This document shows positions 7,969 through 16,835 of a DNA stretch of 30,036 nucleotides, one piece after another. This DNA comes from a virus. The position numbers were made by a program, and so were the translations under genes. Location of the stretch: positions 1 through 30,036 of IMG/VR virus record IMGVR_UViG_3300028844_001002, one strand, 5' to 3'. Positions within the stretch are counted from its first letter, which is position 1. Each line of letters opens with the position of its first letter. Below the pieces are notes generated by a model. That model was not told the origin of the DNA. It made no database searches and worked only from the letters and a program-made list of their open reading frames with translations.

Positions 7969-8063
7969 AACACTTCTCCTAGGATGATTAATACCATAAG
8001 ACATAGTAGGGGTTGAAGGAAGTCCGCATCAAGCAGACCGTTATTTCTTAATTTCTTTATCAT
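7965..8063 (-). CDS. Leaderless 32-residue peptide gene
   Basis: The ATG at 8063 is exactly six bases after a perfect -10 (TATAAT), where +1 is expected, so the mRNA would start with the start codon. The peptide begins MIKKLRNNGLLDADFLQP and ends in a hydrophobic stretch (LLCLMVLIILGEVL). Its stop TGA overlaps the next ATG (ATGA), a classic coupling arrangement. It could be a membrane peptide or a leader controlling the next gene. Both frames begin ATGATAAAGAAA. No family is recognised. Confidence 0.5.
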   Translation of the reverse strand: MIKKLRNNGLLDADFLQPLLCLMVLIILGEVL

Positions 8064-8069
8064 GTAGCC

Positions 8070-8099
8070 ATTATACTAAAAAGTGATGGCCATTGTCAA
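8070..8099 (-). promoter_or_regulatory. Strong sigma70-like promoter (copy 1 of a repeated cassette)
   Basis: Minus strand TTGACA (8094-8099), 18 bases, TATAAT (8070-8075), both consensus. The spacer ATGGCCATCACTTTTTAG is nearly shared with copies at 8261 and 16528. The ATG of a small gene is at the predicted +1. Confidence 0.8.
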
Positions 8100-8104
8100 G
8101 TTTT

Positions 8105-8254
8105 ATGGCGCCTCTGAAACCCTTATAGGCAAGGCATCTCAGAGCATTAACACATATGATATGCATGGTACTCTACTATACATCAGGAGTACCATTAACA
8201 CATAGACCTCTCAGACATGGGGTCTTTCGCCTGTTACCTTCGTCAATTCATCAT
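8105..8254 (-). ncRNA. Structured RNA candidate A between two promoters
   Basis: About 150 bases transcribed from the promoter at 8261-8290 carry only tiny frames (the leaderless one is MMN-stop). Two clear structures are present. One is a perfect nine-base stem ATGGTACTC / GAGTACCAT (8165-8173, 8187-8195) with a 13-base loop. The other is nested: CTCTGA/TCAGAG (8112-8117, 8139-8144) enclosing CCTT/AAGG (8121-8124, 8131-8134). The 12-mer CATTAACACATA occurs twice (8145-8156, 8193-8204). No T-run terminator ends it, so it may read into the next promoter and small genes. It could be a small RNA or a long structured 5' leader. Confidence 0.4.
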
Positions 8255-8260
8255 AGGTAT

Positions 8261-8290
8261 ACTATAACAAAAAGTGAGGGGCATTGTCAA
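8261..8290 (-). promoter_or_regulatory. Sigma70-like promoter (copy 2 of the cassette)
   Basis: Minus strand TTGACA (8285-8290), 18 bases, TATAGT (8261-8266). It differs from the copy at 8070-8099 at five of 30 positions. An ATG again lies exactly six bases downstream of the -10 (8252-8254), but the frame is only three codons long. Confidence 0.7.
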
Positions 8291-8530
8291 GTCTTTTTGC
8301 GTGGGAGCGCCTTGCCTTATCACATTTGTGGGTCGCTGTCAACATGCTCTCATGCTTGACTCTCCGCTAAAAATAGGTTTTGTATCCCCGAACAGCACCA
8401 CCAAAACCCACTTTATTCCACATTCTCCCATCCACTCCAAATACGAATATATTTACACACTTCTGCACACTACTACACACATTATATTCATCCTCTGATT
8501 CCGCTCTAAACAATTATATTCAAAACCCCC
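8291..8530. other. Non-coding stretch without an assignable feature
   Basis: Neither strand has a frame with a ribosome site or a protein-like sequence; the plus-strand frames here are low-complexity (Pro, Thr, His-rich) and cross the promoters. The octamer CCTCTCAG or close variants occurs at 7337, 8208 and 8541, and similar CTCAGAG words recur through 7330-8550. The meaning is unclear. The region separates the minus-strand promoter array from the single plus-strand gene. Confidence 0.4.
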
Positions 8531-8559
8531 TATACAAAGGCCTCTCAGCGTGTTATACT
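8531..8559 (+). promoter_or_regulatory. Plus-strand promoter for the DUF7220-like gene
   Basis: TATACA (8531-8536), 17 bases, TATACT (8554-8559), with the ATG at 8565, five bases after the -10. The mRNA would have at most one or two leader bases. The -35 matches consensus at four of six positions, so strength is uncertain. Confidence 0.45.
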
Positions 8560-8564
8560 AAGGT

Positions 8565-15386: not shown

Positions 15387-15890
15387 TTAGTCGTTCTTTC
15401 TTAGTTCTTTAAGTTGAGCAATAGTATCTTCTGCACTCGTGTGTAGGATACCGATTCCTCCATGCTCTTCCCATGCATCAAGGTTCTTTTGTCTGTCATC
15501 AATAAGGACACTTCCTTTGATTGCAAACATACCTTTCTGACTACCAGTCATAGTGCAAGTGACTACCACTGTAGGACTCACATGTTCCTTAATCCATTCA
15601 TTCTTATCGAACACTACCAACTCTCTGTTGATGACACCTGCTGCAGTTAGGATTTCCCATGGCAATCCAGTGTGTCTTACATATCCTACCAAATCATACA
15701 TATCTGGCATAGGTGGTAACATTCTGAACAATCTCTTGTTCGTTAACTCTTCCTTCCTTTGGTCGTAATCATTGTGACCTTGGTCGGTGTTAGGGAACTC
15801 TCTCCCTGTCAATGTTTCAACTCCAGTGTTGAAATCCGCTAGTACTCCATCCATATCGATGAAGATTCTCTTTACTCTTTTATTTTCCAT
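15387..15890 (-). CDS. 5'(3')-deoxyribonucleotidase-like HAD phosphatase
   Basis: These 167 residues begin with the HAD motif I FIDMDGVLADFN (Asp12, Asp14), then motif II ILTAAG, Lys near DKNEWIKEH, and motif IV VLIDDRQKNLDAWEEHGG. This is the NT5C/5'(3')-deoxyribonucleotidase group, which removes phosphate from dNMPs and helps balance dNTP pools together with the reductase and MazG. The ATG lies at the +1 of a strong promoter and has no ribosome site, so it is expected to be translated from a leaderless mRNA. Confidence 0.8.
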   Translation of the reverse strand: MENKRVKRIFIDMDGVLADFNTGVETLTGREFPNTDQGHNDYDQRKEELTNKRLFRMLPPMPDMYDLVGYVRHTGLPWEILTAAGVINRELVVFDKNEWIKEHVSPTVVVTCTMTGSQKGMFAIKGSVLIDDRQKNLDAWEEHGGIGILHTSAEDTIAQLKELRKND

Positions 15891-15896
15891 ACGTAT

Positions 15897-15926
15897 AGTA
15901 TACTCGATTTATATGGCCATTGTCAA
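15897..15926 (-). promoter_or_regulatory. Sigma70-like promoter for the nucleotidase gene
   Basis: Minus strand TTGACA (15921-15926), 18 bases, TATACT (15897-15902), ATG at 15890 exactly six bases on. The start of its spacer, ATGGCCAT, is shared with the copies at 8070 and 16528. Confidence 0.75.
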
Positions 15927-15996
15927 GGTCATTTTGACCAAAAGAGGTCATATATGATATGATTCGGGGTCATTTTGACCAAAAGAGGTCATATAT
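15927..15996. repeat. 29-base direct repeat: gene end duplicated beside a promoter
   Basis: GGTCATTTTGACCAAAAGAG plus nine more bases occur at 15927-15955 and again at 15968-15996, 41 bases apart and identical. The right copy encodes the last residues (YDLFWSK) and the stop of the SprT-like gene. The left copy abuts the -35 of the next promoter. Each copy holds GGTCA-TTT-TGACC, an inverted repeat, so it may also be an operator. Confidence 0.85.
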
Positions 15997-16410
15997 CATC
16001 TCTTCTTTCTTGTATGCTTCACGTTCCCAAGGTTGACGGGAATAGGGTGTAAACTTGTATTTCTTACCTTTGTAGTTCACCAAAGATGGTGTTAAATCAC
16101 CACGTAAGAATTGTTTGGCATGGACTAGTTCATGTGCAAGTGTCATCATCATCTGTGACATTGATTGTGGTTTACCAGTCATTGGGTTGGTTTTACTGAT
16201 TTCTATATCAATGAAGTTTTTATCACCAAGACAATATCCTAGTGCATCGGGTATAGATTTAGTAAATGATATTTGGATTTCAACTTCACGTCTGAGACGT
16301 GGCATAAAATAGTGTATTGTAGAACGACAGAATTTAGAGATTCGTTTCTTCTCTGCAATTTGTCCTTTAAAGGATACGTCTATATTGTCAAACCATATCT
16401 TCTTCGTCAT
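15970..16410 (-). CDS. SprT-like zinc metalloprotein
   Basis: The frame continues upstream to 16434 (GTG), but I take MTKKIWFDN at 16410 as the likelier start; neither has an ideal ribosome site. The 146 residues show a zinc motif HELVHAKQ (HExxH) preceded by MSQMMMTLA, and an upstream strand GYCLGDKNFIDIEI. SprT-like proteins act as DNA-protein crosslink proteases or template-associated factors. The third zinc ligand is not evident; EREAYKKE may supply it. The C-terminus YDLFWSK and stop are part of a 29-base duplication. Confidence 0.62.
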   Translation of the reverse strand: MTKKIWFDNIDVSFKGQIAEKKRISKFCRSTIHYFMPRLRREVEIQISFTKSIPDALGYCLGDKNFIDIEISKTNPMTGKPQSMSQMMMTLAHELVHAKQFLRGDLTPSLVNYKGKKYKFTPYSRQPWEREAYKKEEMIYDLFWSK

Positions 16411-16570
16411 CAATTCTTTCAACCTCATCTTCACTTATTTCGGAACCACAGAACACACAATGTGCTATAATATAGTGATTCTCATCCATATCATAAAAGC
16501 ATTCGAATTCACTCTTACAACTGTTACATGATACTAAAAAGTTGTGGCCATTGTCAAGGTTAATTGTCAT
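16388..16570 (-). CDS. Small zinc-ribbon protein (60 aa)
   Basis: I start at MTINLDNGHN because GGAG lies eight bases upstream; a longer frame begins at 16603 inside the previous gene. The protein has two knuckles, CNSCKSEF and HCVFCGSE, then an acidic tail ending in EDMV, so it is a Cys4 zinc ribbon without enzymatic motifs. It could be a nucleic-acid or RNA-polymerase-binding factor. Codons 4-14 (LDNGHNFLVS region) coincide with a copy of the promoter cassette. It overlaps its neighbours by 11 and about 23 bases. Confidence 0.68.
   Translation of the reverse strand: MTINLDNGHNFLVSCNSCKSEFECFYDMDENHYIIAHCVFCGSEISEDEVERIDDEEDMV
16528..16557 (-). promoter_or_regulatory. Promoter-like cassette (copy 3) inside the zinc-ribbon gene
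   Basis: Minus strand TTGACA (16552-16557), 18 bases, TATCAT (16528-16533). Only three of 30 positions differ from the cassette at 8070-8099. The -10 has one mismatch and there is no ATG at +1, so activity is uncertain. Confidence 0.5.
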
Positions 16571-16751
16571 AATTTGGTCTCCATCCTGTGTTATCTTTCT
16601 CACTTTTCACCATAATTTTCTCATAAAGAGACTCAAATGACATCTTCTTGTCATTATAGACAGCATATGGTAATGGGTGTTTCGCTTCATCTGTATGAAA
16701 TTCAAGTCCAGCAGTGTATATACGTACAGTTTGATACTCTCTATCAATCAT
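16560..16751 (-). CDS. Small hypothetical protein (63 aa)
   Basis: The frame encodes MIDREYQTVRIYTAGLEFHT, then PLPYAVYNDKKMSFESLYEKI, ending in GWRPNYDN. It is a mixed alpha/beta soluble protein and I recognise no family. Only TTTGGG abuts the ATG, so the ribosome site is poor; a stable hairpin sits right upstream (16757-16774) and might expose or block it. It overlaps the zinc-ribbon gene. Confidence 0.5.
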   Translation of the reverse strand: MIDREYQTVRIYTAGLEFHTDEAKHPLPYAVYNDKKMSFESLYEKIMVKSEKDNTGWRPNYDN

Positions 16752-16774: not shown

Positions 16775-16835
16775 CACATATAACATCTTGGTCACTTAGT
16801 TTAGGTAGATATAGTACTCATTTGCTTGTCCCATA

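Follow-up and report, generated by a model that had tools for sequence, protein, structure and literature searches.

A copy of a repeated sigma-70 early promoter, read here from sequence comparisons, probably acts as an internal promoter for an SprT-like gene in a marine phage and seems, at the same time, to have been captured as coding sequence of the zinc-ribbon gene upstream. The stretch of DNA analysed here (the window) is a 30,036-base IMG/VR virus contig that belongs among the marine T4-like phages, to judge from its genes and from its matches to cyanophages, HTVC008M and Melnitz phages. We take its genes to include NrdA, NrdB, a glutaredoxin and 2OG oxygenases. The locus runs entirely on the minus strand, in the order NrdB, glutaredoxin, the 16560-16751 ORF, zinc ribbon, SprT-like gene and 5'(3')-deoxyribonucleotidase (Table 1). 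Relative to L139, L140 and L141, which have CTAT or CTAC there, a 4-nt CTAT is missing from the window at 16815; this gap disrupts a longer form of the small upstream ORF and is either a true mutation or an assembly error.

Table 1. Features of the zinc-ribbon/SprT-like locus and promoter cassettes of the window
Feature	Coordinates	Strand	Remarks
In-gene early-promoter cassette	16528-16557	-	-35 TTGACA 16552-16557, 18-nt spacer, -10 TATCAT 16528-16533
Predicted transcription start of the internal promoter	16521	-	Inferred, about 6 nt past the -10, after the first Cys codon
Insertion of 24 nt (8 codons) relative to the shortest orthologues	16535-16558	-	Inferred from alignment; DNA comparison with L157, L146 and L151
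Zinc-ribbon gene, 60 aa (CxxC...CxxC), read through the cassette	16388-16570	-	ATG 16570, stop 16388-16390
Small upstream ORF	16560-16751	-	Stop codon 16560-16562, 2 nt ahead of the cassette; overlaps the zinc-ribbon start
SprT-like gene (metallopeptidase-like, HExxH; 146 aa), proposed to be driven by the internal promoter	15970-16410	-	ATG 16410
5'(3')-deoxyribonucleotidase gene	15387-15890	-	Pfam NT5C
Second cassette	15897-15926	-	Before the 5'(3')-deoxyribonucleotidase gene; ATG exactly 6 nt past the -10
Third cassette	8070-8099	-	Perfect TTGACA-N18-TATAAT
Fourth cassette	8261-8290	-	TTGACA-N18-TATAGT

A repeated early-promoter cassette lies within the zinc-ribbon gene

On the minus strand, positions 16528-16557 read TTGACAATGGCCACAACTTTTTAGTATCAT, a sequence of the form TTGACA-N18-TATCAT. 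Measured against a sigma-70 early promoter (-35 TTGACA, -10 TATAAT, spacing of about 17 nt), it agrees at 6/6 positions of the -35 and 5/6 of the -10, with a spacing of 18 nt; the -10 departs from the clade form TATAMT, and the 18-nt spacer is common to the whole cassette family. It is identical to the 8070-8099 copy at 27 of 30 positions. A pattern search of the window allowing up to 3 mismatches returned four copies (8070, 8261, 15897 and 16528), all on the minus strand, where 0.05 were expected from shuffles. An independent weight matrix, for which 38 cassettes from lineages other than that of the window served as the training set, recovered exactly the same four sites at 34.9, 31.4, 27.5 and 25.6 bits, the fifth-best site of the window scoring 1.7 bits and the best in 3 Mb of simulated sequence 13.9 bits. 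The earlier note had placed a near-copy in codons 4-14 of the 60-aa zinc-ribbon gene; the copy is indeed in frame within the gene, but it spans codons 5 (second base) to 15 (first base), codon 15 encoding the first zinc-binding Cys.

Related loci, about 40 of them distinct, were gathered by scans with the deoxyribonucleotidase and NrdB proteins, and most carry TTGACA-N18-TATAMT at the deoxyribonucleotidase junction. Two large relatives each have some twelve or more cassettes, most of them intergenic, and in the 120-kb relative G001 TTGACAATGSCC occurs four times, twice at the zinc-ribbon/SprT locus; the presence of cassettes differs between related loci. This form and position suggest that the cassette is the clade's standard early-type promoter, of the host (sigma-70) type. 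No match to the cassette family was found in HTVC008M, and exact matches in four unrelated viral contigs (L011, L017, L024 and L030) probably reflect chance resemblance in coding sequence.

The 15897 and 8070 copies have upstream stem-loops (z -2.86 and -2.29, respectively), whereas none beside the 16528 copy is stable (z 0.98 upstream, -1.37 downstream). The region 8000-8560, in which no long minus-strand ORFs occur, contains two cassettes, a possible 32-aa ORF starting at 8064 and, at 8100-8160, a stable stem-loop; it gave no Rfam match. At three of the four window cassettes an ATG lies exactly 6 nt past the -10 (15890, 8064 and 8254), and the resulting mRNAs would be leaderless, as is the lambda cI mRNA transcribed from PRM. 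The deoxyribonucleotidase gene has this arrangement in nearly all related loci; beyond that gene, however, ATG at +6 is modestly over-represented (7/47, P=0.003), which weakens a universal leaderless rule, and many cassettes are followed by a leader of 25-30 nt. The in-gene copy has no start codon at its predicted +1, which rules out a leaderless mRNA of the kind proposed at 15890. A more distant T4-like set (G011 and the upstream regions of L196, L198, L199, L200 and L204) uses another repeated promoter, TTGACACATAGGTACA...TATAAT, often also with an ATG 6 nt past the -10.

The cassette would supply the N-terminus of the zinc ribbon

A candidate Shine-Dalgarno sequence (GGAG, 16579-16582) stands 8 nt upstream of ATG 16570, a good spacing, and this ATG is the sole ATG, GTG or TTG start between the end of the upstream ORF and the first CxxC; the ORF would be translated through the cassette. 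The two CxxC knuckles (C15, C18, C38 and C41) are invariant in 22 sequences. The best Pfam match of the window protein (E=0.014) is below the gathering cut-off, and 17 of the 22 sequences of the family give weak matches to Zn_ribbon_8. In the AlphaFold2 model (mean pLDDT 70 overall and 87 for residues 11-20), residues 8-14 form a strand; the cassette-coded residues are predicted to form the first strand of the zinc ribbon, where orthologues carry FRIYC-like residues.

Among the 21 zinc-ribbon sequences from other lineages that were compared, the cassette is absent from all 21, the N-termini read M-K-I-K-V-Y/F-C or similar, and the first Cys is at residue 7-11 instead of 15; the LDNGHNFLV peptide was found in none of these 21. 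The earlier note had seen its dual reading as vulnerable to homologues that keep the same residues without the cassette; about 20 distinct orthologues have neither. Coding constraint by itself is ruled out, both by the absence of these residues from cassette-free orthologues and by the rarity with which recoding yields the match (P about 1e-4).

In DNA, L157 reads ATGAAGATTAAA-GTATTT-TGT and the window ATGACAATTAAC-CTTGACAATGGCCACAACTTTTTA-GTATCA-TGT, an in-frame difference of 24 nt; in the alignment to the shortest orthologues, this gain is restricted to the lineage of the window. The orthologous codons, GTATTT or GTATAT followed by TGT, are already -10-like. Part of the -10 may therefore be native, and recombination at the short GTAT-T similarity may have added the -35 and the spacer.

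The SprT-like gene is the proposed target

The translation of the SprT-like gene contains HELVH, matches PF10263 below the cut-off (E=0.021) and strongly matches PHROG families of unknown function. A cassette lies at most 160 nt upstream of the long type of this gene in 6 of 11 lineages including that of the window (5/10 without it); for the short type the count is 0 of 17 (Fisher p=0.0012, the window lineage being counted; the lineages are not fully independent). In the other five cassette-bearing long-type lineages, the cassette is found just past the upstream gene or abutting the start of the SprT-like ORF. The window has overlapping zinc-ribbon and SprT-like genes, with the predicted transcription start 111 nt ahead of ATG 16410. 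A transcript begun there would not contain the first Cys codon and so could not serve the zinc ribbon. In relatives the promoter belongs to the next gene downstream, which makes it likely that the cassette functions as a promoter. A promoter copy grown over by the gene and a promoter hidden in the gene had been offered as alternatives; the evidence favors both together.

In L148 (3478), L164 (3479), L169 (3099) and L187 (2346), the first ATG of the SprT-like ORF abuts the -10 and a transcript would begin past it; translation in these relatives may instead start at a TTG or ATG near codon 12 that follows an AAGGA-like site. At its end, the SprT-like gene carries a 41-bp tandem duplication (15927-15999) that is absent from the otherwise near-identical L140, and the apparently heavy divergence of the gene between the window and L140 is an artefact of it.

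Alternative explanations

The cassette may have been inserted, perhaps recently, and now be nothing but a protein N-terminus, its transcription start lost; we consider this unlikely, though it is the alternative that fares best. The off-consensus TATCAT speaks for it, as do 4 of the 11 lineages with a long SprT-like gene, in which no cassette lies within reach (a fifth has one only some 300 nt upstream). It also draws on the lack of informative variation: the in-gene copy occurs in only two haplotypes, on seven contigs besides the window, and the first 90 nt of the zinc-ribbon gene, cassette included, are identical in both. With the 5' half of the gene invariant, the haplotype comparison is uninformative on promoter selection. 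Against such a relic, the -35, the spacer length and 16 of the 18 spacer bases still agree with the intergenic 8070 copy, and the gene downstream is of the type that bears such a promoter in relatives.

It is less probable still, and indeed improbable, that the promoter is real and the zinc-ribbon ORF has ceased to function as a gene, which would make the dual reading one on paper only. A start at this promoter would remove the first Cys codon, and some relatives' ORFs overrun the cassette with a better start downstream (G001 at 79898; L148 and L164). No alternative start, however, keeps both CxxC motifs of the window gene, whose four Cys do not vary in the family and whose Shine-Dalgarno spacing is good; moreover, between the two haplotypes the gene shows two synonymous substitutions, one missense substitution and an in-frame gap of 3 nt.

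Chance resemblance of coding sequence to the promoter consensus is very improbable: coding sequence can now and then mimic the cassette at a lower score, as a 20-bit matrix match in conserved codons of the relatives' nrdA shows, but the 27/30 identity to another copy, the null maximum of 13.9 bits, the random synonymous recoding of the cassette peptide (observed score attained in 0.013% of trials, P=1.3e-4) and the absence of the cassette residues from orthologues all stand against it.

Relation to known systems and proposed dual function

Shuffled early-promoter cassettes (PeSLs) are established in T4-type phages (Arbiol 2010; Comeau 2014; both as cited in PMC4503421). By that account, PeSLs resemble the window cassettes in being repeated host-type early promoters at gene junctions, near accessory genes, with turnover between related T4-like genomes; near-copies occur at several junctions here too (four in the window) and vary among relatives. 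PeSLs as there described, however, combine a promoter with a stem-loop between genes, whereas the 16528 copy has no associated stem-loop and sits inside a protein-coding frame. The cassette may also mediate gene shuffling, as suggested only by the turnover of neighboring genes. Marine T4-like phages of a related group (Melnitz and HTVC008M, Kyanoviridae) have sigma-70-type host promoters, like the window cassette. The Melnitz annotation (PMC9004378) retained promoters only if intergenic or at most 10 bp from an ORF end, a rule by which the in-gene copy would have been discarded. Ordinary internal promoters of bacterial and phage operons likewise lie inside one gene and drive the next. Such promoters usually arise by local sequence evolution; the 16528 copy, unlike them, is recognizable as a copy of a repeated cassette and came into the gene as an in-frame segment specific to one lineage.

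In the scheme that we propose, a copy of the clade's repeated sigma-70 early promoter would have entered the zinc-ribbon gene in frame, at its 5' end. Transcription by RNA polymerase would begin at about 16521 and yield an mRNA with the SprT-like gene but not the zinc ribbon, and on mRNAs reading through from upstream the cassette would be translated as zinc-ribbon residues 5-15, including the first strand. We give roughly even weight to the broader view that a mobile cassette has been co-opted as protein-coding sequence and is still active as a promoter for the next gene, that the LDNGHNFLV strand replaces the native N-terminus of the zinc ribbon, and that promoter shuffling in T4-like phages also remodels proteins. 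If this is true, a single 30-nt stretch would be both promoter and protein code, and would owe this to a captured repeat cassette and not to slow drift; annotation rules that drop in-gene promoters would miss real ones, and promoter shuffling in T4-like phages would alter proteins as well as expression.
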